Below are positions 4,136 through 31,200 of a stretch of DNA of 33,058 nt, one piece after another (positions within the stretch are counted from its first letter, which is position 1; the number at the start of each line of letters is the position of its first letter). The notes below the pieces were generated by a model, which saw only the letters and a program-made list of their open reading frames with translations, was not told the DNA's origin and ran no database searches. The translations under genes and the position numbers were made by a program. This stretch comes from Brachyspira sp. G79 (GTDB lineage Bacteria; Spirochaetota; Brachyspiria; Brachyspirales; Brachyspiraceae), in the NCBI RefSeq assembly GCF_002379365.1, contig NZ_JQIU01000008.1, forward strand, positions 411,936 through 444,993. Direction: 5' to 3'.

Positions 4136-4852
4136 ATGAACAGAGATGAAATTTTAAAAAGATATAATTTGATAGAAGATAATATTAACAGAGTAAAAGA
4201 GAAGTATAATATAAATTATGATGTAAGTTTGGTAGCGGTAAGTAAATATTCTTCTATTGAAACAATAAAAGAGTTTTTATCATTAAACATAGACTTGCCA
4301 TTGGGAGAGAGTAAGGCACAGAGTTTGAGAGATAGGGTAGGGGAGATAGGTAAAATAAAAGACAATGTAAAATGGCACTTTATAGGACGCATACAAAGCA
4401 ATAAAGTAAAATATATAGTAAGATATGCAGATTTGATACAGAGTGTAGATTCTATAGAGATAGCAGAATGTATAAATAAAGAGGCATTAAAAAATAATAA
4501 AATACAAAATATACTGCTTCAGTTTAATATAAGCGATGAAGACCAGAAGGGCGGATTTACGGCAGATGACTATATATGGGTATATGAGAATATTATCAAA
4601 ATGCCTAATGTATCAGTAAAAGGATTAATGGCAATAGGAAAAGACACAGAGGATACTGCTATTATAGAGGAAGAATTCGAGCGTCTTAACATAATATATA
4701 AGGAAATAAATAAAAAATATAATAACGCTTTATCAATTCTTTCTATGGGTATGTCATCTGACTATGAGCTAGCCATAAAGCATGGTTCAAATATGGTTAG
4801 AATAGGCAGCAGCTTTTTGGGCAATTTTTTAAATATTTTTGATTTTTCATAA
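4136..4852 (+). CDS. YggS family PLP-binding homeostasis protein
   Basis: Cytoplasmic pyridoxal-phosphate-binding protein of the YggS/PLPBP family (alanine-racemase-like barrel without racemase activity), which buffers PLP and affects amino-acid metabolism. Evidence: the PLP lysine in LVAVSKYSS (Lys37), WHFIGRIQSNKVKYI, the QSVDSIEIA strand, LMAIG, and the C-terminal phosphate-binding segment LSMGMSSDYELAIKHGSNMVRIGS. At 238 residues it is of usual length. The usual GENY/GENR loop reads GESK here. The ATG at 4136 follows an AGG about nine bases upstream. Only 21 bases separate its stop from hsdS copy 1, so this promoter may also transcribe that hsdS. Confidence 0.92.
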   Translation: MNRDEILKRYNLIEDNINRVKEKYNINYDVSLVAVSKYSSIETIKEFLSLNIDLPLGESKAQSLRDRVGEIGKIKDNVKWHFIGRIQSNKVKYIVRYADLIQSVDSIEIAECINKEALKNNKIQNILLQFNISDEDQKGGFTADDYIWVYENIIKMPNVSVKGLMAIGKDTEDTAIIEEEFERLNIIYKEINKKYNNALSILSMGMSSDYELAIKHGSNMVRIGSSFLGNFLNIFDFS

Positions 4853-4873
4853 TGTAATTAGAGGTTTTAAATA

Positions 4874-4921
4874 ATGAAAAAAAATCAAAAAGAATGGCAG
4901 GAAGTTAGGCTAGGGGATATA
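4874..4921 (+). repeat. Inverted repeat N (hsdS 5' end), copy 1
   Basis: 48 bp starting at the hsdS ATG, matching 11774-11821 in opposite orientation with one mismatch. Inversion here would exchange complete hsdS genes between the two loci. Confidence 0.85.
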
Positions 4922-6124
4922 GTATATTTCAATCCTACAGAAAAACTGATAAAAGGTAACAATTATAAAAAAATATCTATGGATTGTTTGATACCAAAAA
5001 CAAGAAAAATAGAAAATTATGAAATTAATATATTTAATGGAGGATCAAAATTTAGAAATGGAGATACTTTAATGGCGAGAATTACTCCATGTTTAGAAAA
5101 TGGAAAAACTGCACAAGTATCTATATTAGAGGAAAATGAAATTGCTTTTGGTTCAACAGAATTTATAGTTTTAAGAGAAAAAGAAAATATTAGTGATAAT
5201 AATTTTATATATTATCTTTTTAATACAGATTATATAAGAAACATAGCAATAAAATCTATGACAGGTACATCAGGACGCCAAAGAGTTCAAGAAGATGTTT
5301 TAAAAAATCTTATTATAAAACTCCCGCCGCTGGAAGAACAAAAGAAAATCGCCTCCATACTCTCATCGCTTGACGACAAAATCGAACTCAATAACCGTAT
5401 GAATAAAATACTTGAAGATATGGCACAGACTATTTTTAAGGAATGGTTTGTCAATTTCAACTTTCCTAACGAAGAGGGCAAACCATATAAAGATAGCGGC
5501 GGCAAGATGATAGAAAGCGAGCTAGGGAATATACCAGAAGGCTGGAAAGTTGGTATTATCAAAGATATATCTAAAGAAGTTATATGCGGTAAAACTCCTC
5601 CAACTAAAGACGAAGAAAATTACGGTGATTATATGCCTTTTATAACAATACCAGATATGCATAATAATACTTTTATAATAAAAAGTGAAAGGTATTTATC
5701 GAATAAAGGAGTTAATACTCAAATAAACAAAACTGTACCTGAAAATAGTATTTGTGTTAGCTGTATAGCAACTGTTGGGCTTGTTTCTTTAACTTCTGAA
5801 AATTCACAAACTAATCAGCAGATTAATACAATAATACCAAAAAAAGATATAAGTTCTTATTGGGTTTATTTCTATATGAAAAATATATCTAATATTATTA
5901 TTAATTATGCATCTGGAGGAACTACAACTTTAAATTTGAATAAATCATTATTTGAGAAAATTAATATAATCATTCCTGAAATTTCTATTTTAGTTACATT
6001 TAATAACAATATAAAATCTATATTTGACATGATTAAATCTAATCAAATAGAAAACCAGAAACTTGCTTCTATTCGCGATACGCTATTGCCTAGGCTTATG
6101 AGCGGGGAGATTAGGGTCAAATAG
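4874..6124 (+). CDS. hsdS: Type I restriction-modification specificity subunit HsdS (copy 1)
   Basis: DNA-recognition subunit of a type I restriction-modification complex (416 residues): target-recognition domain 1 at about residues 17-147, central conserved helical region at about 148-226 (KLPPLEEQKKIASILSSLDD, then MAQTIFKEWFVNFNFPN), recognition domain 2 at about 227-390, and the distal conserved ending NQKLASIRDTLLPRLMSGEI. Each recognition domain reads one half of a bipartite site. The first 16 residues, the central region and the C-terminus match copy 2 at 10550-11821, whereas both recognition domains differ. A GAGG lies nine bases before the ATG. It follows yggS rather than hsdM, so it may be a storage copy or a weakly expressed alternative subunit. 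Confidence 0.95.
   Translation: MKKNQKEWQEVRLGDIVYFNPTEKLIKGNNYKKISMDCLIPKTRKIENYEINIFNGGSKFRNGDTLMARITPCLENGKTAQVSILEENEIAFGSTEFIVLREKENISDNNFIYYLFNTDYIRNIAIKSMTGTSGRQRVQEDVLKNLIIKLPPLEEQKKIASILSSLDDKIELNNRMNKILEDMAQTIFKEWFVNFNFPNEEGKPYKDSGGKMIESELGNIPEGWKVGIIKDISKEVICGKTPPTKDEENYGDYMPFITIPDMHNNTFIIKSERYLSNKGVNTQINKTVPENSICVSCIATVGLVSLTSENSQTNQQINTIIPKKDISSYWVYFYMKNISNIIINYASGGTTTLNLNKSLFEKINIIIPEISILVTFNNNIKSIFDMIKSNQIENQKLASIRDTLLPRLMSGEIRVK
5315..5550 (+). repeat. Inverted repeat M (hsdS central region), copy 1
   Basis: 236 bp covering codons of about residues 148-226. It aligns without gaps to the reverse complement of 11139-11374 with nine mismatches (about 96% identical). Inversion here would swap recognition domain 2 between the two hsdS genes. 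Confidence 0.92.
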
Positions 6125-6252
6125 TTTATTTATGAAGTTCTTTCACTCAGTGATACATACAGGCGTCATAAAGAAGTGGAGGCACGACTGTGTACTTCGG
6201 AGAGCTAGTCCACACAATTAATAAATAAAATTAGTTTTGAAACAATTATATT
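6050..6252 (+). repeat. Inverted repeat C (hsdS 3' end plus downstream), copy 1
   Basis: 203 bp running from the last 25 hsdS codons into non-coding DNA. It aligns without gaps to the reverse complement of 10422-10624. Only 6076 (a synonymous third-position C/G) and 6246 (T/G) differ. Conservation of the non-coding half argues for recent gene conversion or inversion rather than protein selection. Confidence 0.95.
6189..6216 (-). repeat. 28-nt TGTGTGGACTAGC element, copy in repeat C (1)
   Basis: On the minus strand: TGTGTGGACTAGC, four variable bases, CGAA, one variable base, TACACA. The ends TGTGT and ACACA are inverted. A diverged third copy stands at 15427-15454, outside the hsdS locus, so this is a dispersed sequence rather than part of hsdS. 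Confidence 0.6.
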
Positions 6253-6329
6253 CCTGCCTCAATGACAAAATGCTAAATTAAAATTAAATAATTTATTTGA
6301 CTTTATATAAAATAAATATACACTATATA

Positions 6330-6342
6330 CTATACAGTATAG
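6330..6342 (+). promoter_or_regulatory. CTATAC-A-GTATAG dyad overlapping the hsdR ribosome binding site
   Basis: A perfect six-base inverted repeat around one A, whose right arm runs into the AGGAG (6341-6345) preceding the hsdR ATG at 6354. It could be an operator or a small hairpin limiting hsdR translation. Upstream, TTGACT at 6297 has no -10 at proper spacing, so the hsdR promoter is not assigned. Confidence 0.35.
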
Positions 6343-6353
6343 GAGTCTTATTT

Positions 6354-9300
6354 ATGAAAAAGTATATGCACGAAAGTGATTTTGAAGTAACCGTTATTGA
6401 GATGATTCAAAACCTTGGGTATGAATATTATTATGGCGGGGACATCAGAGAAAATTTTCCCTCTATGAATAATACCAAAAATGTTGTTATTACTGAAGTA
6501 TTATATGACGCTCTTAAAAAAATTAACCCCAACGTTTCAGATAAGGCTATTAATGAGGCTATAAGAAAAATTACTAATCTTGAAGAAATTAATTATATAG
6601 ATAAAAACAAAACCTTTCAAAAATATCTCTCATTTGGAATAGAGGTTAATTATTTTGATAATGAAAATAAAGCAACATACATAAAATTAGCTGACTATGA
6701 CAATATAGAAAATAATTATTTTTATGTTGTTAATCAGCTTGTTATTATAAATATTGATAATAAAAGACCTGATGTAATAATATATTTAAATGGTATTCCT
6801 CTTGTTGTTATGGAGTTTAAAAATCCTGTTGAAGATTCTGAAACTATAGACGATGCATATTTGCAGTTAAAAAACTATATGGAGAATTGGATACCTAATC
6901 TTTTTTATTATAATGCTTTTTGTGTTATTACTGACGGCGTGAGGGCAGAAGTAGGCACTATTACCGCTGATAAAAGCAGATTTATTTCTTGGAAGAGAGA
7001 AAGCGAAGATATTGATATTATAGAGAAAAATGCTGATTTAAACAAACAGTATAAAACTTTAATTAATGGAATGCTTCAAAAAGAAAGATTTTTAAATATT
7101 CTTCATTATTTTGTTTTTTATGTGCAAAGTGGAAAAAAAGAAGGATTAAAAACATCTAAAATATTAGCAGCATATCATCAATACTTTGCTGTTAATAAAA
7201 TAATTAAAAATGTAAAAAAGGCATATTCAGATAAGACAACAAAAGCAGGTATTGTTTGGCATACCACAGGCTCTGGCAAATCTTTTACTATGCTTATGGC
7301 AGCAAAGGTTATATCTCAAGGTTTGTATAATCCTACAATAGTTATAATTACAGACAGAACAGAATTGGACGATCAATTATTTTCAACTTTTTCAAGTGCT
7401 ATAGATACATATTTAAAACAAACACCAAAGAAAATAGAGTCCAGAAAAGAACTTGTAAAAGAGTTAAAAGATATTAACGAAGGCGGTATAATATTTACAA
7501 CTCTTCAAAAGTTTGAGAGCTATGATAAGGCATTATCAAAAAGAAGTAATATTGTTTTAATTGTAGATGAGGCACACCGTTCGCATGACCTTGAAAAGTC
7601 TAAAATAGAAAAAGGACAAATAAAATATAATATGTCCAAATATATTAATGACGCTTTCCCCAATGCCATAAAAATAGGTTTTACAGGTACTCCTATAGAA
7701 AAAGAAGATAGAAATACAAGAGATGTTTTTGGGGATTATATTGATATTTTTGATATAACACAGTCAGTTGAAGATAATGTAACAGTGCCTATATATTATG
7801 AGGGTAGGGTAAACTATTTAAAACTTGATGAAACTAAATTAAAAAAAGCTGATGAAGAATACAGAATAATGCTTGAAAATAACGAGGCTTCAGAAGAGGC
7901 TATAGAAAAATCCAAAAAAGAACTCTCAAAAATGGATGCTGTACTAGGTTCTGATGCTGCAATAGATACTTTATGCAAAGATATAGTAGCACATTATGAA
8001 AAAAGAAAAAGTGTACTTATAGGAAAGGCATTTATAGTGGCATATTCGCGTCCTATAGGAATAGAAATATATAAAAAAATATTAGAGCTTAAACCAGAAT
8101 GGGAAGGCATGATAAAACCCGTAATGACTAGCACAAATAAAGACCCTGCAGATTGGGGTAAAATACTTGGAAGTAAATCATACAGAGAAAATTTGGCAGT
8201 TGAATTTAAAGATAAAACTTCAAACTTTAAAATAGCTGTGGTTGTAAGTATGTGGCTTACAGGTTTTGACGTTCCAGAGCTTGACACAATGTATATATAT
8301 AAGCCATTGGCAGATCATGATCTTATGCAGACAATATCGAGAATTAATAGGGTTTGCAAGGATAAAGATTCTGGGCTCATAGTTGATTATATAGGTATAG
8401 CTAATAATCTTAAAAAGTCTATGAAAGCATATACAAAAAGAGATAAAGAAAATTATGGTAATATGGATATAGCAAATACTGCATTACCAAAGTTTAAGGA
8501 TATTATTGCCCATATTAGAAATATTTTTAAAAATACTGATTATTCCAACTTTTACACTTGTTCAAGTACAGAAAGGTTAGAGCTTATAACTAAATTAGCC
8601 GATTATGTGTTTTCATTTGAAGAAAACGAAAAAAATGATTTTTTAGATAAGGCATCTGCATTAAAAAAAGCGGAAGCATTATGCAGAAGTATTATTTCAA
8701 GAGAAGAATCTGCAGAAACAGCATTGTATGAAGCGGTTAAAGTAATAATAACTAAAATGCAAAGTCATCAGAAATTATCATTAAGAGAGATTAATCAGAG
8801 AATAAATAAAATACTTGAAGGAAGTATACAAAGCGAAGGTATTATGAATATATTTGACGGCGAGAAGGATTCTAAAGATATATCTTTATTTGATAAAAAA
8901 TATTTAGCGTCTATTGCCAATATGAAGTATAAGAATATAGCATTAGAGGTATTAAATAAATTATTGAATGATAAAATAAAAGCATATTTAAAAGTAAACA
9001 TAATACAGTCCAATATGTTTTCAGATAGAATGAAAAAAATAATGGAAAAATATAATAATAAGGCCATAGATAATATAGAGGTAATAGATGAGCTTTTAAA
9101 TCTTGCTAATGACTTGGACAACCTAGAAAAAGAAGCAAAAATTTTGGGACTTACAAATGAAGAGAAAGCTATATATGATGCTATATGCAGTCCTATGAAT
9201 AATGGTTATAATAAAGAAGAAATAAAGAACATGGCTAAGGAATTGGCATTAATAGTGCAAAAGAACTCTGAAGATATAGATTGGCAGTATAAGGAATCTA

Positions 9301-9431
9301 CAAAGGCAAAAATGAAAATGGATATAAAAAGATTTTTGAAGCTGCATAAATATCCCAAAGAAAAAGAAAATGAGGCATTGGATAATATATTAAAACAGGC
9401 AGAGAATTACGCATCATTAAAGTACAGCTAA
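6354..9431 (+). CDS. hsdR: Type I restriction enzyme endonuclease/translocase subunit HsdR
   Basis: Motor and nuclease subunit (1,025 residues) that translocates DNA at unmethylated sites with HsdM and HsdS and then cuts it. The nuclease motif is PDVIIYL followed by VVMEFKNP (Asp at about 140, Glu-x-Lys at about 154-156). Helicase motifs are Walker A HTTGSGKS at about 303-310, DEAH at about 405-408, FTGTP, and the QTISRINRV motif VI. Length is normal and no break is seen. The start is ATG at 6354, eight bases after AGGAG; an in-frame TTG at 6297 lacks a binding site. The gene lies between the two inverted hsdS copies, opposite in orientation to hsdM, so its orientation would flip with inversion. 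Confidence 0.96.
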   Translation: MKKYMHESDFEVTVIEMIQNLGYEYYYGGDIRENFPSMNNTKNVVITEVLYDALKKINPNVSDKAINEAIRKITNLEEINYIDKNKTFQKYLSFGIEVNYFDNENKATYIKLADYDNIENNYFYVVNQLVIINIDNKRPDVIIYLNGIPLVVMEFKNPVEDSETIDDAYLQLKNYMENWIPNLFYYNAFCVITDGVRAEVGTITADKSRFISWKRESEDIDIIEKNADLNKQYKTLINGMLQKERFLNILHYFVFYVQSGKKEGLKTSKILAAYHQYFAVNKIIKNVKKAYSDKTTKAGIVWHTTGSGKSFTMLMAAKVISQGLYNPTIVIITDRTELDDQLFSTFSSAIDTYLKQTPKKIESRKELVKELKDINEGGIIFTTLQKFESYDKALSKRSNIVLIVDEAHRSHDLEKSKIEKGQIKYNMSKYINDAFPNAIKIGFTGTPIEKEDRNTRDVFGDYIDIFDITQSVEDNVTVPIYYEGRVNYLKLDETKLKKADEEYRIMLENNEASEEAIEKSKKELSKMDAVLGSDAAIDTLCKDIVAHYEKRKSVLIGKAFIVAYSRPIGIEIYKKILELKPEWEGMIKPVMTSTNKDPADWGKILGSKSYRENLAVEFKDKTSNFKIAVVVSMWLTGFDVPELDTMYIYKPLADHDLMQTISRINRVCKDKDSGLIVDYIGIANNLKKSMKAYTKRDKENYGNMDIANTALPKFKDIIAHIRNIFKNTDYSNFYTCSSTERLELITKLADYVFSFEENEKNDFLDKASALKKAEALCRSIISREESAETALYEAVKVIITKMQSHQKLSLREINQRINKILEGSIQSEGIMNIFDGEKDSKDISLFDKKYLASIANMKYKNIALEVLNKLLNDKIKAYLKVNIIQSNMFSDRMKKIMEKYNNKAIDNIEVIDELLNLANDLDNLEKEAKILGLTNEEKAIYDAICSPMNNGYNKEEIKNMAKELALIVQKNSEDIDWQYKESTKAKMKMDIKRFLKLHKYPKEKENEALDNILKQAENYASLKYS

Positions 9432-9526
9432 TTGGGTATTGCGGATATATAGCAGCTTATTAAAATTACAGGTATTCAATAAATAAAACCAAAAAATAAT
9501 AAATTTATATTCCGATAATGTATATT

Positions 9527-9542
9527 ATGTTAACTTAAGCAT
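9527..9542. promoter_or_regulatory. Imperfect ATGTTAA/TTAAGCAT palindrome
   Basis: ATGTTAAC followed by TTAAGCAT, a near match of the palindrome at 3937 with one inserted G. It lies just past the stop of the small minus-strand gene and about 95 bases past hsdR. No U-run follows, so it is not an obvious terminator. Confidence 0.25.
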
Positions 9543-9543
9543 G

Positions 9544-9648
9544 TTATTTTTTTATAGACTTTATTATGATATTGATAATAAACCCGATAATAAAGAATAT
9601 AACTATCATCATGCCAATAGATACTAAAGGGTTTCCCTGATTTTCCAT
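9544..9648 (-). CDS. 34-residue single-span membrane peptide
   Basis: A short open frame from ATG at 9648 to TAA at 9544. The peptide starts MENQGNPLVS, has an uninterrupted hydrophobic stretch of about 19 residues (IGMMIVIFFIIGFIINIII) and ends KSIKK. Two signals support it as a real gene: AAGGA seven bases before the ATG, and a good promoter (TTGACT, 18 bases, TATAAG at 9710-9681). The small polar N-terminus and lysine tail predict one membrane helix with the C-terminus in the cytoplasm. Function unknown: a small membrane-protein partner or a type I toxin-like peptide are both possible. It lies in the segment between the inverted hsdS copies. Confidence 0.65.
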   Translation of the reverse strand: MENQGNPLVSIGMMIVIFFIIGFIINIIIKSIKK

Positions 9649-9680
9649 TTTTTAATCCTTAAAGTTATTAAGTTCTTATA

Positions 9681-9710
9681 CTTATAATAAATAAAAAATT
9701 AAAAAGTCAA
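9681..9710 (-). promoter_or_regulatory. Promoter of the 34-residue peptide gene
   Basis: TTGACT (9710-9705), 18-base spacer, TATAAG (9686-9681) on the minus strand, 33 bases upstream of the ATG at 9648. It diverges from the lipoprotein promoter at 9746. Confidence 0.68.
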
Positions 9711-9745
9711 TACCTAATATTTATACAAGCAATTTTCATTAACAA

Positions 9746-9774
9746 TTGAACTTTTTTATATATTATAGTATAAT
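9746..9774 (+). promoter_or_regulatory. Promoter of the small lipoprotein gene
   Basis: TTGAAC (9746-9751), exactly 17 bases, then a perfect TATAAT (9769-9774), 41 bases upstream of the ATG at 9816. Confidence 0.72.
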
Positions 9775-9815
9775 CTGTCATTAATAAATAAAAATAAAAT
9801 TACGGATATGCACTA

Positions 9816-10343
9816 ATGAAAAAAATAACACTTTTTTTAATATTAAGTTTAATAATTATATCATGCAAAAATGACGGCGGATCTATATACGCTATGGAGA
9901 AAAGATATAAAAATTTTTTGAATATACTTCCAACTGATATAAGGAATGACTATACTTTAGAATCTGATAAATACGGTAATATGTATAAAGAATGGATTAA
10001 TGAGTTTAACACTTGGACAGATAATATACTAAATACGGAAGTGCAAAGAGAAAAAGAAATATCATCAAGAATAACACCAGACAAGATAGAATACGCACTT
10101 GAAACTTTAACAAGCAAAGACTATGAGAGAAACTTGCCTGTAGATCTTATGTCTAAAGTAAAGGCACATACAGATGAATTATCATTAAAAATAGAAGAAT
10201 TAGAAAAAGATGAGTCTTTCTCTAATAGTATGATAAAACTAAAAAAAGATGAAGCTGTAGAAAACTTTACAACAAAAGACACTATATTTTACTATGTATG
10301 GAACTATTTAATAACAATAGAAAGACCAAGACGTTTTCAGTGA
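9816..10343 (+). CDS. Small lipoprotein of unknown function
   Basis: A 175-residue protein with a classical lipoprotein signal: two lysines, a hydrophobic stretch and the lipobox IISC with Cys17 as the predicted lipidated residue. The mature part is charged and mostly helical, with no recognised domain. It has its own promoter and lies between hsdR and the decayed hsdS scrap, inside the segment bounded by the inverted hsdS copies, so it is probably a passenger rather than a part of the restriction system. The ATG at 9816 follows a GGA about nine bases upstream. Confidence 0.78.
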   Translation: MKKITLFLILSLIIISCKNDGGSIYAMEKRYKNFLNILPTDIRNDYTLESDKYGNMYKEWINEFNTWTDNILNTEVQREKEISSRITPDKIEYALETLTSKDYERNLPVDLMSKVKAHTDELSLKIEELEKDESFSNSMIKLKKDEAVENFTTKDTIFYYVWNYLITIERPRRFQ

Positions 10344-10351
10344 TATAGCTT

Positions 10352-10390
10352 TTAATTATTTAGCCTAATCTCCCCTATCAATAAGCTAGG
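10352..10390 (-). pseudogene. Decayed 3' end of a third hsdS
   Basis: Read on the minus strand, 13 codons give PSLLIGEIRLNN and a stop, resembling the PRLMSGEIRVK ending of both intact hsdS genes. The DNA match is clearest at CCTAG and GGGGAGATTAGG. Only about 31 bases separate it from the end of inverted repeat C, and no recognition domain is left. It suggests that a tandem hsdS once stood here and was lost by deletion. Confidence 0.6.
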
Positions 10391-10421
10391 CGTATAGAAA
10401 TAATTTTTTAATTTTCTATAT

Positions 10422-10624
10422 AATATACTTGTTTCAAAACTAATTTTATTTATTAATTGTGTGGACTAGCTCTCCGAAGTACACAGTCGTGCCTCCACTT
10501 CTTTATGACGCCTGTATGTATCACTGAGTGAAAGAACTTCATAAATAAACTATTTGACCCTAATCTCCCCGCTCATAAGCCTAGGCAATAGCGTATCCCG
10601 AATAGAAGCAAGTTTCTGGTTTTC
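10422..10624 (-). repeat. Inverted repeat C, copy 2
   Basis: Reverse-complement partner of 6050-6252, differing at two positions in 203. It holds the last hsdS codons and about 128 bases of conserved non-coding DNA. Confidence 0.95.
10458..10485 (+). repeat. 28-nt TGTGTGGACTAGC element, copy in repeat C (2)
   Basis: Identical to the element at 6189-6216 in opposite orientation, and 23 of 28 positions identical to 15427-15454. Confidence 0.6.
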
Positions 10625-11821
10625 ATAAAAATTGTTATTTACTTTTTCTATTATAGAATTAAATATTTTAGTTGATAGTTTTAGAATTACTTTTTCTGGA
10701 ACTATAATATTATATTTTTTTAAATCCATCATTCTTATTCCTCTCTGTACACTTCCGCTAGACATATTTAAAGCATATTCTTGCATTCTATTATCTAATA
10801 AATTTAAATATAAATATTCTGGTGTTATGATATCATTAGCTCTCATGGTAAATATAGATTCGCTTATATTCCAATTTTTTACATCTTTATTTATCAAATG
10901 TACTCTTCCGATAGTACCTATACCTGAAAATAATAAATCATTTTTTCTTAAATCCGAACGCTTATTAATTTTTTTTATTGCTTCATCATTAATTTTATCA
11001 CATCTATTGTCTAAATATATTTGATTATTATTCATATTTTTTATTGTTACATAATAGTTATTTCCTTCACCTAATTTGAAATTTTTTCTAGGATTTAAAC
11101 CTGTTGTAAATTTTATTAATAAATTATCTAAAGCCATGACTTTCCATCCATCTGGTATATACCCTAGCTCGCTTTCTATCATCTTGCCGCCGCTATCTTT
11201 ATAGGGTTTGCCCTCTTCATTTGGAAAGTTGAAATTGACAAACCATTCCTTAAAAATAGTCTGTGCCATTTCTTCGAGTATTTTATTCATACGGTTATTG
11301 AGTTCGATTTTCTCGTCAAGCGATGAGAGTATGGAGGCGATTTTCTTTTGTTCTTCCAGCGGCGGGAGTTTTATTTTTATATTGTATAAATCACTTGGTT
11401 TTATAGAAGGATATGTTGATACACTTTGTTCTGCTATCATTTGTAAATAGTTTGTTATATCATCTTGTATTATATTATAATATATAAAATATTTATCTGC
11501 TATATCTTCTTTTACTTTAATAGTAATAAATCCTGTAGATACTATCATATTATCAACATAATTTTTTATAATACCATAATGTTTTTGAATGGGTCTGACA
11601 GTTGAATAGATAATATCACCAATATCTACTTTTCTTTTTGCTCTACTTGGTATATTATGTATAGGAATTTTTTGGATATTATCTATTATTCCTTTAGTAA
11701 TGTTTCCAGTATCTAAATAATTTATATAAGTGTAATTATCAGATTTTTGTAAAATATTAGAATTAATATCTGATATATCCCCTAGCCTAACTTCCTGCCA
11801 TTCCTTTTGATTTTTTTTCAT
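10550..11821 (-). CDS. hsdS: Type I restriction-modification specificity subunit HsdS (copy 2)
   Basis: 423-residue specificity subunit with the same layout as copy 1: shared N-terminal MKKNQKEWQEVRLGD, recognition domain 1 at about 17-160, shared central region (LPPLEEQKKIASILSSLDEK, KEWFVNFNFPNEEGKPY), recognition domain 2 at about 240-395, shared ending LASIRDTLLPRLMSGEI. Both recognition domains differ from those of copy 1, so it should read a different bipartite DNA sequence. It is the last gene of the minus-strand hsdM-hepT-mntA-hsdS series, 90 bases after mntA, so it is the copy most likely to be expressed with HsdM. AGGAG stands upstream of the ATG at 11821. Confidence 0.95.
   Translation of the reverse strand: MKKNQKEWQEVRLGDISDINSNILQKSDNYTYINYLDTGNITKGIIDNIQKIPIHNIPSRAKRKVDIGDIIYSTVRPIQKHYGIIKNYVDNMIVSTGFITIKVKEDIADKYFIYYNIIQDDITNYLQMIAEQSVSTYPSIKPSDLYNIKIKLPPLEEQKKIASILSSLDEKIELNNRMNKILEEMAQTIFKEWFVNFNFPNEEGKPYKDSGGKMIESELGYIPDGWKVMALDNLLIKFTTGLNPRKNFKLGEGNNYYVTIKNMNNNQIYLDNRCDKINDEAIKKINKRSDLRKNDLLFSGIGTIGRVHLINKDVKNWNISESIFTMRANDIITPEYLYLNLLDNRMQEYALNMSSGSVQRGIRMMDLKKYNIIVPEKVILKLSTKIFNSIIEKVNNNFYENQKLASIRDTLLPRLMSGEIRVK
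11139..11374 (-). repeat. Inverted repeat M, copy 2
   Basis: Reverse-complement partner of 5315-5550; 236 bp without gaps, nine mismatches. Confidence 0.92.
11774..11821 (-). repeat. Inverted repeat N, copy 2
   Basis: Reverse-complement partner of 4874-4921; 48 bp, one mismatch, ending at the hsdS start codon. Confidence 0.85.
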
Positions 11822-11911
11822 TACTTAAAAAACTCCTGCTGTTATTGTACAAAATCTATGTTATATCAATTCTTTAATGTTTCGAGATTTAAAGACATAG
11901 CCTATCCTATT

Positions 11912-12208
11912 TTAATTAAGCCTATTATAAATTATTTTACCATATTTTTCTATATTGTTTTTTAACTCTTCATTGTTTATATCATTATGGCTTATTACAT
12001 CAAATTTTAAAAGAGTTTCTAATTCTGAAAGCTCTTCCTTCAAACGCTCGCAAAAAAGAAAATCAAAATCACCTATTACAGATAAATCTATATCCGAATT
12101 ATATTTTTCTCTGTTTTCTGCCCTAGACCCAAACAGTATTATTTTTTCTATTTCTTTATGAGATTTAAAAATATTGTTCATATCATAAAGAAGTTTTTCA
12201 TCTATCAT
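11912..12208 (-). CDS. mntA: MntA-type minimal nucleotidyltransferase antitoxin
   Basis: A 98-residue minimal nucleotidyltransferase. The catalytic signature GSX10DXD is complete: Gly27-Ser28, then Asp39 and Asp41, within ILFGSRAENREKYNSDIDL. In characterised HepT-MntA pairs this protein neutralises the HEPN toxin by adding AMP groups to a tyrosine next to the toxin's active site. It follows the HEPN gene by 14 bases on the same strand and lies between hsdM and hsdS. The product is named from motifs and gene pairing. Confidence 0.88.
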   Translation of the reverse strand: MIDEKLLYDMNNIFKSHKEIEKIILFGSRAENREKYNSDIDLSVIGDFDFLFCERLKEELSELETLLKFDVISHNDINNEELKNNIEKYGKIIYNRLN

Positions 12209-12222
12209 ATATAAAACCGCTC

Positions 12223-12642
12223 TTATAATTTATTTACAAAAAAGTTATGCAAATCTTCTAAAACATTTAAATAATCATTTTCTATTTTTATTATGACTTC
12301 TTTAAATCTTGCAAAATCATAAGTATGAGAAAGCAAATTCCTGCTTATCATCATATCTATAAAAATACTAGGTTCTTTTATTATACCCGCAGAGTATGCC
12401 TCTTTAAACACATTTCTTGCTGTAATATCTATGTTATTTAAATTTCCGCTATATTCTAAATAATCTTTTAATGTTTTCCATGCCAGTTCATAGGTATATT
12501 CAAATCTTTGTATAACGCCTTCCTGCTCCAATATTGATAATTCTTCAATTTTTCTTTCTTTAAATACACTATTTAATAATTTATAAGCCTTACTAAAATT
12601 ATTAAACCTTTGTTTCCAGCGTATATTTTCATTTAATTCCAT
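12223..12642 (-). CDS. hepT: HepT-type HEPN toxin (HI0074 family)
   Basis: A 139-residue all-helical protein of the HI0074 nucleotidyltransferase-partner family, here assigned as HepT. The HEPN ribonuclease motif RX4HXY is intact: Arg101, His106, Tyr108 in SRNLLSHTYD. Tyr108 corresponds to the residue AMPylated by MntA in studied systems. The family segment FEYTYELAWKTLKDYLE is also present. Its ATG (12642) overlaps the last 14 bases of hsdM, and an AGAGG lies nine bases upstream inside hsdM, so it is translationally coupled to the methyltransferase gene. The coupling suggests a link between restriction and toxin control, but this is inference. Confidence 0.88.
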   Translation of the reverse strand: MELNENIRWKQRFNNFSKAYKLLNSVFKERKIEELSILEQEGVIQRFEYTYELAWKTLKDYLEYSGNLNNIDITARNVFKEAYSAGIIKEPSIFIDMMISRNLLSHTYDFARFKEVIIKIENDYLNVLEDLHNFFVNKL

Positions 12643-14125
12643 ACCCTATTTCCTCTAAATTATCCTTTATACTCTTTTCTAGCTTTCTGCTTTCTCTGAA
12701 ACATTCTTCAAGCTCTTCTGTTAGTGTTTTCATTTTAGAATTAAAATCTTCTTCTTCGTTATTTTCTTCTTCAAGTCCTACATAGCGTCCAGTTGTGAGT
12801 ATATAATCTTCTTTGGCTATTTCATCTATACTTACACTTTTGCAGTATCCTTTTATATCTTTATATCCATTGCCTTTCTGCCAATTATGAACAGTTTTTG
12901 CTATTGCTTCTATATCTTCATCATCTAATACCCTTTGAACTCTGCTTTCCATTCTTCCATAATTTCTTGCATCTATAAAAAGCACATTTCCTTTCTGTTT
13001 TTTATCCTTATTCAAAAACCATAATGAAACAGGTATCTGAGTCGATATAAATAATTGAGTTGGAAGAGATATTATACATTCTATTAAATCATCTTTTATC
13101 ATATTCTCTCTTATCCCCCCCTCTCCCGATGTTTGAGTAGAAAGAGATCCGTTTGCAAGTACAACCCCAGCTTTCCCTTTTTTTGATAATTTGGATGCAA
13201 TATGAGAAAGCCAAGCATAGTTTGCATTTCCAGCTGGAGGAATACCCCATTTCCATCGATAATCATCTTTTAGAGCATCACCTCCCCAATCTGACATATT
13301 AAAAGGAGGATTAGCCAATATATAATCAGCTTTCAAATCACTATGTAAATCTTCAAAAAAAGTATCAGCATTTTTATCTCCCAAATTACCATCTATACCA
13401 TGTATTGCTACATTCATATTGCAAAGTTTCCAAGTTGTGGGATTACTTTCTTGTCCGTATACTGATATACTATTTACACTTTCAGAATGTGCCTCTAAAA
13501 ATTTTGCACTTTGTACAAACATTCCACCGCTTCCGCAGCAAGGGTCATATACTCTGCCCTTATAAGGTTCTAATATTTCTACTAAAAGTTTAACTATTGG
13601 TGATGGCGTATAAAACTCTCCGCCTCTCTTTCCTTCGGCAGTTGCAAATTGAGATAAAAAATATTCATACACATTTCCCAATATATCTTTTTTATTTTTA
13701 TTCACTATTTTTATATTAGAAAATAAATCTATTATCTCCCCTAGCCTTCTCTTATCAAGTTCTGGTCTGCTATAGTTTTTAGGAAGTATATCTTTCAATT
13801 TTTTATTACTTTCTTCTATTTCCAGCATGGCATTATCTATAATAGAGCCTATTTCATCAGAACGTGCTTTTGAGGCTATATACTTAAATCTTGATTTCTC
13901 AGGCAAATAAAATATATTTTTTTCACTATATGCTTCAGCCTCATCTTGCAAATCAAATCCTTCTTTTACAAGCTCATTATATCTTATTTCAAATTTATCA
14001 GAAATATATTTTAAAAATACAAGCCCAAGTATTACATGTTTATATTCAGAAGCATCAATATTTCCTCTTAATTTATCAGAAGCTGCCCATAATTCCTTTT
14101 TTATATCATTGTCATTTGAACTCAT
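12629..14125 (-). CDS. hsdM: Type I restriction-modification DNA methyltransferase HsdM
   Basis: Adenine-N6 methyltransferase subunit (498 residues) that protects host DNA and forms the core complex with HsdS. The N-terminal helical domain covers about residues 8-140. The S-adenosylmethionine motif DPCCGSGGMF is at about 193-202 and the catalytic NPPF at about 271-274. The start is ATG at 14125, giving MSSNDND, with AGGGAG ten bases upstream. An in-frame upstream TTG at 14194 is the -35 box of the gene's own promoter and cannot be the start. It is the first gene of the hsdM-hepT-mntA-hsdS series and diverges from the LacI-type gene. Confidence 0.96.
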   Translation of the reverse strand: MSSNDNDIKKELWAASDKLRGNIDASEYKHVILGLVFLKYISDKFEIRYNELVKEGFDLQDEAEAYSEKNIFYLPEKSRFKYIASKARSDEIGSIIDNAMLEIEESNKKLKDILPKNYSRPELDKRRLGEIIDLFSNIKIVNKNKKDILGNVYEYFLSQFATAEGKRGGEFYTPSPIVKLLVEILEPYKGRVYDPCCGSGGMFVQSAKFLEAHSESVNSISVYGQESNPTTWKLCNMNVAIHGIDGNLGDKNADTFFEDLHSDLKADYILANPPFNMSDWGGDALKDDYRWKWGIPPAGNANYAWLSHIASKLSKKGKAGVVLANGSLSTQTSGEGGIRENMIKDDLIECIISLPTQLFISTQIPVSLWFLNKDKKQKGNVLFIDARNYGRMESRVQRVLDDEDIEAIAKTVHNWQKGNGYKDIKGYCKSVSIDEIAKEDYILTTGRYVGLEEENNEEEDFNSKMKTLTEELEECFRESRKLEKSIKDNLEEIGYGIK

Positions 14126-14165
14126 TTTATTTAAACTCCCTATTATAGATTGATGAATAGTAATA

Positions 14166-14194
14166 AATATACTTAAAAAATAGAATTTTGTCAA
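14166..14194 (-). promoter_or_regulatory. Promoter of the hsdM operon
   Basis: Perfect TTGACA (14194-14189), 17 bases, TATATT (14171-14166) on the minus strand, 41 bases before the hsdM ATG. Confidence 0.78.
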
Positions 14195-14310: not shown

Positions 14311-15345
14311 ATGGCCACTATAAGAGAAATAGCCAAACTTGCAGGAGTTTCAATAGGAACTGTTGATAGGGCTTTAAATAACAGAGGACGTATTGATCCT
14401 GAAGTTGAACAAAAAATACTTGATATTGCTAAATCATTAAACTACAAGCCAGATAAAATAGCTAAATCTCTTGCCATAAGAAAAAAGAAATTCAAAATAG
14501 CTGCTGTACTCAATACTTATAATAATGTGTTTTTTGAAGATGTTATAAAAGGTATAGAGATTGCAGGAAAAGAAATAGAAGAGTTTGGAATGTCTGTTAT
14601 TATAAAACGCTGTAAAGATTTTGATGCGGATAATCAGTTAGAACTTATAGATGATGCTGTAAAAGAAGGTGCTAATGCTATGGCAATAGTTGCTATAAAT
14701 GATAATAGAGTTATAAACAAAATATCAGAGCTTCATCATAATAATTTTCCTATAGTGCTTTTAAACTCTTTTGTAAATAGTAATGATTGTATAGCATATG
14801 TTGGCTGTAATTATGATTTGGCAGGAGAGATAGCAGCTTCTCTTTTAAATATTATATCTAATGGGAATCCTATTAATTTACTTGTATTTTCTAATAATTT
14901 TAATAAAATGCTTGGTAATAAAAAACGTGTTGATAGTTTATCAAACAGACTTAAAATGGATTATCAAAATGTCATGCTTCAGTCTATAATAGAAATGGAA
15001 AAAGATAACAATCTCAATTTTGATAAAAGTAAGTATAATTTATTGAAATATAATGATACAGATATAGTTATATGTCCAGGAGCAGAAACTAGTAAATATG
15101 TTATAAATGCCATTAAAGAATTAGGGCTTTATAATAAAATAAAAATTATAACATATGATTTTTCGGAAGTTGTAAAAGAAGGACTTTTGGACAGAGGTAT
15201 TATAGCTTCAATAACACAAAATCCAAAAGAACAAGGCTACAGAGCAATAAAAGTTTTATTTGAATATTTACTTACAAAAACTATACCAGATAAAAGATAC
15301 ACATATATAGAAACACAGGTAATATTCAGAGAAAATTTATTATAG
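14311..15345 (+). CDS. LacI family transcriptional regulator
   Basis: A 344-residue DNA-binding regulator. Residues 2-25 (IREIAKLAGVSIGTVDRAL) form the LacI-type helix-turn-helix, followed by NYKPDKIAKSLA as the hinge helix. Residues from about 60 on form a periplasmic-binding-protein-like sensor domain, typical of binding a sugar or similar effector. An AGGA lies seven bases before the ATG, and it has its own promoter. It is the only obvious DNA-binding regulator in the window and converges on the transport operons at 15584-24568, so it is the natural candidate regulator of the shared promoter box upstream of them. The effector cannot be named. Confidence 0.9.
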   Translation: MATIREIAKLAGVSIGTVDRALNNRGRIDPEVEQKILDIAKSLNYKPDKIAKSLAIRKKKFKIAAVLNTYNNVFFEDVIKGIEIAGKEIEEFGMSVIIKRCKDFDADNQLELIDDAVKEGANAMAIVAINDNRVINKISELHHNNFPIVLLNSFVNSNDCIAYVGCNYDLAGEIAASLLNIISNGNPINLLVFSNNFNKMLGNKKRVDSLSNRLKMDYQNVMLQSIIEMEKDNNLNFDKSKYNLLKYNDTDIVICPGAETSKYVINAIKELGLYNKIKIITYDFSEVVKEGLLDRGIIASITQNPKEQGYRAIKVLFEYLLTKTIPDKRYTYIETQVIFRENLL

Positions 15346-15426
15346 CATTCTATATTAATTATTTATTTTTAATTGTATCTAAACAATTATAGTTTGTCAA
15401 AAAATAAATTTTTAAATTTTAGTATT

Positions 15427-15454
15427 TGTGTGGACTAGCCATACGAAATACACA
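15427..15454 (+). repeat. 28-nt TGTGTGGACTAGC element, diverged copy
   Basis: TGTGTGGACTAGC, CATA, CGAAATACACA; 23 of 28 positions match the elements at 6189-6216 and 10458-10485. It lies 82 bases after the LacI-type gene. Its CCATACG can pair with CGTATGG at about 15499-15505. Confidence 0.5.
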
Positions 15455-28200: not shown

Positions 28201-31200
28201 CTTGAAGAGCTTTATAATAAAGAAAAAACTTCTTTAAATGAACATGTTAATACTTTGAAAGATGAGATAGAAAAAGCAAGAGAAGAATCTGAAGCTAAAC
28301 ATCTTACTAATGAAGCTAATTATATAGACGATTATTTGAATAAAGCCTCTTCAAAAATAGATGAAGAGGTTAATCGCCTAAATGAAGAGCTTAATGATTC
28401 ATTCAATACATTATACAGTGGTTTTTCTAAAATATTAGCTAAGATAAGAAAATCTAATCATAAAAAAGCATTGCAGTCTATTGCTAAAATTAAAAAACAT
28501 GCTGAAAAAGTTATATCTAATACAGCAGCAGAAGTTAGAGACAGTCTTGGTCTAACATTAGAAGATTTGAGAAATGAGTTTATATCATTAAAAGATAATG
28601 TTGATGATAAATTAAGAGAACAGGCAGATAAATTAATATCTAATAATGAAAATGTGCTTGCTATATTAGATGATCATGAAAGCAGACTAGAGAAAATAAA
28701 TGATATCTCTAATATCATAGAAAATATAAAAGAAACTTTATCTGAACAGATAGATGAATTGAAATCTAATATTTCAGACAGTAATGAAGATGTTAATAAC
28801 AGAATGGAAGAAATTAAATCTTCTTTAATAGACAGGGAAGAATTAATAAACTTACATGACAGTGAAAGAGAACTTCTTAAAAATCAGATAGAAGATATAA
28901 AAGAAGAATTTGAACTATTTAAAGATAATATAGTAAGAACTAATGAAGTAGAGATACCAGCCCTATTTGATGAAGAAAAAGAAAGAATAGAGAGAATGTT
29001 TGATGAGTTTAGTAAGAACCTTCTTATGAGGATTACTGATAACGAAAGTGATATACATTATATAAAAGATGTATTATCTGAAGAGAGAAGTCATTTAATA
29101 TCTCAGATAGAACTTTTAAGAAGAGATGTTGATGATATAAAAGATGATAATACTGTAACTGTTTTATCAGAAGAAAAAGCTGTTCTTGAAAACTCTTTAA
29201 CTGCTTTAAGAGATGATTTTGATAAAATAATTGATTTGGAAAAAGATTTTGTTTCTCTTAAAAACAGAATGGAAGGTATTGACAGCGGATTAAAAGATGA
29301 TGTTAAAGATTTATCTGATAAATTAAAAAGTTTTAGAGATAACTTAGAAGAAAAGATAGAAAAAGATTCAAATGGTCTTTATAAAGACATAGAAAATCTT
29401 AATAAAAATTTTGAGACAGTTAGAAACAATATGTCCGATTTATTGGATAGAGATGAAGTTGAGTCATTAATTAATAATGAAAAAGAAAGATTAAACTCTA
29501 TATTTGAAAGTTTAGTTTCTAATAATGAAGATTTTAAAGACAGATTAGAAAAACGCATATCTTATTTTGAAGATGTATGGTCTGATAATACTAGAATAAA
29601 AAGTATATATGCTTCAGATATAAGAGAGGAAGTTGAAAATATAAGAAAAGAAGCTGATATTAAATATGATAATCATATAGCTCAATTAAAAGAAAAAATG
29701 AAATCAATTGAAGAGGATATATATGATTGGAAAAATGGTAATTTGAATACTTTGCTTGCTCAGTTAGAAGATGCAAGAAAAGGAATAGAAAGCTTTATAG
29801 ATACTTCTGAAGGTAAGAAAAATCAATTCTTAATCGATATGCTAAGCAGTATAGAAAATAAAGAAAGTGAAATATATTCCCGCATAGATGAGAAGATATT
29901 GAATGCTGAAAATAAACTTTCTGATATAGATGAAAAATTAAATAATGCTATAGGCAATAGTCTTGAAAGTATTCATAATAGAATAAATGAATCTGTTGCA
30001 AAATATGATGAAGAGATAAAAAGAATAGAACATCATAGAGCAAATGAAGCTGAAGATTTAATATCTGATATGGAGGATTTGGGTAACAGTATACGCGAAG
30101 ATTATGAAGAATATTCTATAATGATAGATAAAATTTATGAAGATGCTGTGGCAGAATTAGAAACTCATCTTGATAATATTAAAAAAGAAATAGAAAGAGC
30201 AAGAGCTGAATCTGAAGAGAAACATTTGTCTAATGAAAAAAATTATATAGATGATTATTTATTAGATTATTCTGAAAAAATAGAAGCTCATGTTAATGAT
30301 AAATTGAGTATATTAACTGAAAGTAAAGCTCAATTAGATGATATGATAAAAGATTCATTCAGCACTCTTAATGCTAATTTGAATGATACTATATCTAAAT
30401 TTAATGAAGAAGCAAACACTCAAATATACTCTGTTGTTGAAAGATTAGAGAGAGAAGCAGCAGCAAGATTGTTTAGCGAGCAGAAATATATGTCTGACTT
30501 GGAAGAACAATTAAGAGCTATAAGTGCAAAAATAGATAATGAACTTTATCATATCTCTTCTAAATTAGACAGTGAAATATCAGATGTGAAAACAAAATAT
30601 AAAGATTTGAGTACTGACTTTGACGAAGCATTAGATATGATAAAAAGCTCTATTCTTGATAGAGATGAGCTTATGGAACTTCAGTCATCAGAAAAAGAAC
30701 TTTTATCTGAACAAATGGAAACTTTGAGAACAGATTTTGATACTTTCAAAGATGAATTGTTAAAAGCTAATGAAGAGGATATCCCTACCCTATTTAATGA
30801 AGAGAAACAAAAGATAGAAAAAGCATTTGAAGATTTTACTACTGCTATACTTGATAGAATGGTAGATTCTGAAAATGATATTAATAATGTAAAAGATGCT
30901 ATATCAGAAAATAAATCTTCTTTCTTAGAAAAAGTTGAAAATATTAAAAGAGATATAGAAGCAATAAAAGAAGATAATACTATAGCCCAGCTTGCTTTAG
31001 ATAAACAGTCTTTAGAAGATTCTTTTAATGCTATAAAAAATGATTTCTCTAAATTAAATGATTTAGAAAATAATTTTTATCATTTAAGCGACAGACTTGA
31101 AGATTTCCAATTGAAAGTTGCAGCGGATAATGATAATTTATTTGAAAATATAGACAGTATCAAAAGTAGTATAAAAGATTCTATAGACAAATCTTCTGAA

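Follow-up and report, generated by a model that had tools for sequence, protein, structure and literature searches.

The window analyzed here, 33,058 nucleotides of Brachyspira sp. G79 (RefSeq assembly GCF_002379365.1, contig NZ_JQIU01000008.1, positions 411,936–444,993 of the forward strand), carries a type I restriction-modification locus in which two specificity genes, hsdS1 and hsdS2, face each other. The closest named relatives found were Brachyspira alvinipulli ATCC 51933 and an uncultured Brachyspira metagenome-assembled genome. Along the + strand, the gene order is yggS (+), hsdS1 (+), hsdR (+), a micro-open reading frame (micro-ORF) of 34 aa (−), a lipoprotein gene (+), hsdS2 (−), an MntA-like gene (−), a HepT-like gene (−), hsdM (−), and a LacI-family gene (+). 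Pfam and PADLOC matches identified hsdR, hsdM, and hsdS, all present, intact, and full length at this single locus. hsdR (6354–9431, +, 1025 aa) combines HSDR_N, SWI2_SNF2, and T1RH-like_C (PADLOC REase_I, E = 1e-274), and hsdM (12629–14194, −; N6_Mtase, E = 4e-112, HsdM_N) probably starts at ~14120. Both HsdS proteins are intact, with two Methylase_S domains apiece, and they are the sole PF01420 proteins in the 3.29-Mb genome: hsdS1 (4874–6124, +) encodes 416 aa (two PF01420 domains, E = 1.8e-43; PADLOC Specificity_I, E = 5e-106) and hsdS2 (10550–11821, −) encodes 423 aa (PF01420, E = 3.9e-31). Separated by ~4.4 kb spanning hsdR, the two genes enclose hsdR, the lipoprotein gene, and the micro-ORF, a content of the segment that had been predicted earlier and that the coordinates confirm. 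hsdM lies outside, and a HepT/MntA-type pair separates it from hsdS2.

Each specificity gene encodes two target recognition domains (TRDs): TRD1a (4934–5308, +) and TRD2a (5540–6049, +) in hsdS1, and TRD1b (11375–11761, −) and TRD2b (10625–11149, −) in hsdS2. Unlike TRDs share 57–59% DNA identity, and all four differ, as originally proposed. Three pairs of inverted repeats connect the genes. The 5′ repeat (4865–4937, + and 11758–11830, −) has a 48-bp core with 1 mismatch (4874–4921 and 11774–11821), the central repeat (5315–5550, + and 11139–11374, −) spans 236 bp with 9 mismatches, and the terminal repeat (6050–6252, + and 10422–10624, −) spans 203 bp with 2 mismatches, comprising the last 75 bp of hsdS and 128 bp of non-coding DNA. 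Recomputation reproduced exactly the sizes and mismatch counts given in the original prediction, with coordinates right to the base. A repeat finder run on the window placed these three ahead of every other inverted pair (255 nt at 94%, 203 nt at 99%, and 73 nt at 89%); the remaining inverted pairs were ≤46 nt at ~71–87%, apart from one 90-nt pair at 71% within TRD1. The three hsdS repeats are far above chance in this AT-rich window. The shared non-coding tail of the terminal repeat had no Rfam match, and its fold was not unusual (z = −0.3). The locus has the structure that defines inverting type I systems, with opposed hsdS genes carrying different TRDs and inverted repeats both ahead of TRD1 and between the two TRDs.

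Two separate operons are likely, each ending in a full-length hsdS: yggS–hsdS1 and hsdM–HepT–MntA–hsdS2. The PLPBP-like yggS (4136–4852, +; Ala_racemase_N, Pfam E = 5e-18), which adjoins the locus in relatives and forms its left boundary, ends 21 bp upstream of hsdS1 and is probably its transcription source. Upstream of hsdS2 lie the antitoxin-like MntA-type nucleotidyltransferase (11912–12208, −; PF18765, E = 1.7e-18) and its HepT-like partner (NTase_sub_bind; 12223–12642, −; PF08780, E = 2e-34), and the LacI-family regulator marking the right boundary (14311–15345, +) is conserved in relatives. A putative hsdR promoter (TTGACT-16-TACACT, 6297–6324, +; a consensus match only) is located within the invertible segment and is conserved in relatives. 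Because this promoter-like sequence travels with hsdR, hsdR may be expressed in both orientations.

We regard this locus as a complete type I restriction-modification system that probably belongs to the inverting class, in which recombination between the opposed hsdS genes re-pairs their TRDs. HsdM and HsdR each have a single gene, and the two full-length hsdS genes, opposed across hsdR and the lipoprotein gene, would provide inverted copies whose recombination reverses the intervening DNA. Inversion at the central repeat would trade TRD2, converting the pair 1a-2a and 1b-2b into 1a-2b and 1b-2a and altering the two motifs that are methylated and restricted. Inversion at the 5′ repeat would exchange whole hsdS genes between two transcription units, that of yggS and that of hsdM, and inversion at the terminal repeat would reverse only hsdR and the lipoprotein gene, leaving specificity unchanged. 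Three nested repeat pairs would allow eight arrangements. Of the four HsdS proteins foreseen in the original prediction, all four are possible, but they would occur two at once, in two pairings, as both hsdS genes are full length within their own likely operons.

Both recombinant HsdS proteins that the central repeat would generate were found in other Brachyspira genomes (given here under our own G numbers), as expected if this repeat re-pairs TRD2. The HsdS of G024 has the composition 1a-2b (94.1% DNA identity to TRD1a, 89.0% to TRD2b), and that of G002, a B. alvinipulli, is 1b-2a (88.1% to TRD1b, 88.8% to TRD2a). Because G79 holds 1a-2a and 1b-2b, all four predicted pairings are represented within Brachyspira, joined at the central repeat. 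A four-gene tree places G002 close to G024, and the complementarity of their yggS-side hsdS genes is consistent with a whole-gene swap at a single two-gene locus, although G002 retains only one hsdS and the G024 locus lies on two contigs.

The orientation of the intervening segment also varies across the genus. Our comparison set comprised 26 genomes, in 19 of which the orientation of the lipoprotein gene could be read. This gene (9816–10343, + in G79), an ancestral neighbor of yggS, is convergent with yggS in 16/19 genomes, some of them without a restriction locus at this position. It is codirectional with yggS only in G79, G004, and G002, and in all three hsdR follows the yggS-side hsdS; hsdR also lies behind the yggS-side hsdS in G024, where the lipoprotein gene is absent from the contig. 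G007 shows the opposite state, a single canonical operon (hsdM-HepT′-MntA′-hsdS-hsdR) with the lipoprotein gene in its ancestral orientation, and G009, G022, and G025 keep only 3′ relics of hsdR in the same ancestral orientation as G007. The lipoprotein gene of G79 is thus inverted together with hsdR, and this flipped unit, compared across species, indicates that the segment has been inverted during evolution. Fitch parsimony on the four-gene tree counted 3 flips. We did not retain three independent inversions and reduced the count to at least two, as the lipoprotein gene of G004 clusters with the G79 clade in the lipoprotein tree, whereas its yggS does not. Remnants of hsdS persist in other genomes: decayed heads and tails lie between the lipoprotein gene and yggS in G010 and G005, a faint head relic occupies the same interval in G007, and in G008 that interval holds an orphan hsdS, still intact (L069:5688–6833), with hsdM and hsdR absent at the locus. 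Given these relics and the orphan gene, the presence of an hsdS beside yggS, opposed to the hsdM operon, is old in the clade. The original prediction would have been refuted by a uniform arrangement among relatives; at the species level, arrangements differ, and it was not refuted. The claim of an invertible locus is supported, on an evolutionary time scale, by cross-species comparison of the flipped hsdR-lipoprotein segment, the two recombinant HsdS pairings, and the homogenized repeats.

This homogenization is visible in the central repeats, whose copies are 96% (G79) and 98% (G004) identical within a genome vs 91–93% between genomes, a pattern indicating that they undergo concerted evolution. 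G004, a single-contig genome, has the same layout of two opposed hsdS genes, and its inverted repeat extends over 839 bp with mismatches confined to the edges, leaving 797 bp, including a complete TRD2, identical between the copies. In G79, the terminal repeats match at 201/203 positions. Together, the identity in G004 and the near-identical tails in G79 point to recent exchange. The direction of one event can be suggested from the tails. Between the hsdS tail and the hsdR promoter lies a dispersed genomic repeat of ~108 bp (6137–6244, +; limits approximate) with a second copy at 10430–10537; the repeat (core CTAGTCCACACAATTAATAAATAAAATTAGTTTTGAAAC) has 36 matches in the G79 genome, at both of these sites, at 15418–15454, and at ~33 further positions, and neither an Rfam family nor an unusual fold was found for it. 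In alignments, the insert at the hsdR-side tail is missing from G004, G002, G024, G020, and G007, and the insert-bearing tail was apparently copied from the hsdR side onto the lipoprotein side, where the remains of an earlier hsdS 3′ end (10358–10397, −), also seen in G008, persist beside the lipoprotein gene. Contig breaks in the draft assemblies of G020 and G024 fall within the hsdS head, a little beyond the central repeat, or at a HepT′ start shared by both sides (53-nt overlap). Such breaks fit duplicated or mixed arrangements but could have other causes. Another dispersed, GC-richer element (AAAAATGCAGTCTTTTTG...GGGGCAAAGCCCTGC) occurs near hsdR in G004 and G007 (L063:7480–7550; L067 upstream of hsdR, ~8380–8450).

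No recombinase gene is evident in the window, as the original prediction had stated, and a search of the genome found neither tyrosine nor serine recombinases within ~350 kb of the locus. The seven tyrosine recombinases of G79 lie at least ~350 kb away (the nearest at ~357 kb) or on other contigs, and serine recombinases were not found anywhere in the genome. A recombinase linked to the locus, as in HvsR-type or creX-type hsd inversion, is thus absent. The genome does encode recA, and the identical runs reach 169 bp (terminal repeat) and 62 bp (central repeat), long enough for ordinary homologous recombination. At 48 bp, the 5′ repeat makes a weak substrate, and in G004 it is missing on one side. 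General homologous recombination via the long repeats of 203–236 bp is our best guess, because no recombinase lies within ~350 kb; we further infer that both hsdS genes are expressed and that switching is frequent enough to yield epigenetically mixed populations. We tentatively propose a fuller model, which as a whole is possible but doubtful, of a recombinase-free epigenetic switch: general recombination would generate up to eight arrangements from three nested inverted repeats, both hsdS genes would be expressed together, motif pairs would be swapped, and hsdR with the lipoprotein gene would move separately between two transcriptional contexts.

Several observations weigh against parts of the probable reading, that of an inverting locus. 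The alternative arrangements were seen between species, which leaves present-day switching a prediction. The central repeat, with its 9 mismatches and identical runs of ≤62 bp, may exchange at a lower rate. Long-repeat switching at the pneumococcal spnIII locus is RecA-independent (PMC6620402), which makes a RecA route in Brachyspira a guess. TRDs also spread by horizontal transfer, which could create 1a-2b or 1b-2a without intrachromosomal inversion. Finally, the restriction cassette was probably transferred into G004, and at least two flips is for that reason the safer count.

It is quite possible that the locus has undergone only slow evolutionary shuffling, with rare hsdS recombination at the scale of species divergence and new specificities established by selection, without phase variation within populations. 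The evidence for inversion all comes from comparisons between species, the copies of the central repeat have diverged by 9 mismatches, and a dedicated recombinase was not found nearby, all of which favor slow change. However, the 797 identical bp in G004 and the 201/203 tails in G79 indicate recent exchange, and the assembly breaks of G020 and G024, which fall at the head of hsdS, at the central repeat, or at the duplicated HepT′ adjoining hsdS as repeats or mixed arrangements would predict, also speak against an exclusively slow process. Such exchange might instead be gene conversion, whereby hsdS copies trade patches and the segment seldom changes orientation. The same TRD2 in both G004 copies is a product of conversion rather than of simple inversion, and the tail with its dispersed repeat was apparently copied one way in G79; nevertheless, reversal of the hsdR-lipoprotein segment in at least two lineages makes conversion without inversion unlikely.

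A site-specific recombinase acting in trans at a short site within the repeats, like HvsR in Mycoplasma pulmonis, appears improbable. The genome does hold seven tyrosine recombinases, and the 5′ repeat, with its 48 bp, offers little length for homologous recombination, but the nearest tyrosine enzyme is encoded ~357 kb away, the serine type is lacking, and the footprints in G004 and G79 are long tracts rather than short fixed sites. Quite improbable, in our view, is that the pairings stem from horizontal gain of TRDs or of another hsdS, with repeat similarity reflecting coding conservation only. The lipoprotein gene of G004, and probably the cassette too, derives from the G79 clade, and TRD1a is 94% alike in G79 and G024 while yggS is only 78% alike, both consistent with transfer. 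Yet gain alone leaves unexplained the inverted lipoprotein gene, the shared 128 bp of non-coding DNA, and a within-genome identity exceeding that between genomes.

Inverting type I loci are already known, and the Brachyspira example is new with an unusual layout. In Mycoplasma pulmonis, the hsdS genes flank other hsd genes in opposite orientation. Inversions between them alter specificity (PMC9465063, PMC11062135) and are catalyzed by the tyrosine recombinase HvsR (PMC4948785), whereas the Brachyspira locus lacks a linked recombinase, places hsdM outside the segment, and encloses a host lipoprotein gene. In the inverting loci surveyed by Atack and found in Streptococcus suis, repeats precede the 5′ TRD and lie between TRDs, making four HsdS proteins possible, and a REBASE survey found inverted duplicated hsdS genes in 3.9% of type I systems (PMC7394358; Brachyspira and spirochetes are unmentioned in its main text). 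Many of those loci carry an integrase gene, and they were scored on one expressed hsdS locus; in G79, the hsdS genes are ~4.4 kb apart across hsdR, each with its own upstream genes. The spnIII/cod/ivr (SpnD39III) system of Streptococcus pneumoniae likewise shuffles TRDs, by inversion at repeats of 15, 85, and ~300–333 bp, and long-repeat exchange continues there without the linked recombinase CreX (PMC6620402, PMC4948785). It differs in having three hsdS genes, of which one is functional in place and the rest are sequence donors, with a linked creX/psrA. The Brachyspira locus fits the structural definition of these well-known inverting systems. We found no paper on Brachyspira hsdS, and no shuffling type I system described for the genus. 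Beyond the genus, relatives of this HsdM sit mostly in ordinary M-S-R operons. Of 80 loci, only L132 (Methanobrevibacter MAG) and L139 (Bacteroidaceae MAG) showed opposed hsdS central regions beside hsdM relatives, though short contigs and the use of one probe limit this count.

Some members of Brachyspira cause disease in pigs, birds, and humans, and phase variation has received little study in the genus. Within it, one locus survives in either orientation and with either set of TRD pairings, along with decaying relics, which makes the genus a good natural archive of the origin, homogenization, and loss of inverting hsdS loci that lack a dedicated recombinase.

HepT/MntA-type pairs of two unlike kinds adjoin hsdS across the genus (11912–12642; L063:9643–11107; L067:6300–7039; L079:2013–2734; L073:8907–9625), and whether they lie toward hsdM or toward yggS depends on the species; G018 retains such a pair beside yggS with restriction genes absent around it. 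The 34-aa micro-ORF beside the lipoprotein gene (9544–9648, −), predicted to form one helix, is conserved in G008 (97%) and G002 (70%). Matches to hsdR obtained by tblastn at 26–33 kb were dismissed as coiled-coil similarity. At 28229–32945, long repeats spaced 1.83–1.92 kb apart occur in coiled-coil-rich coding sequence, corresponding to a large internally duplicated protein gene or an array.

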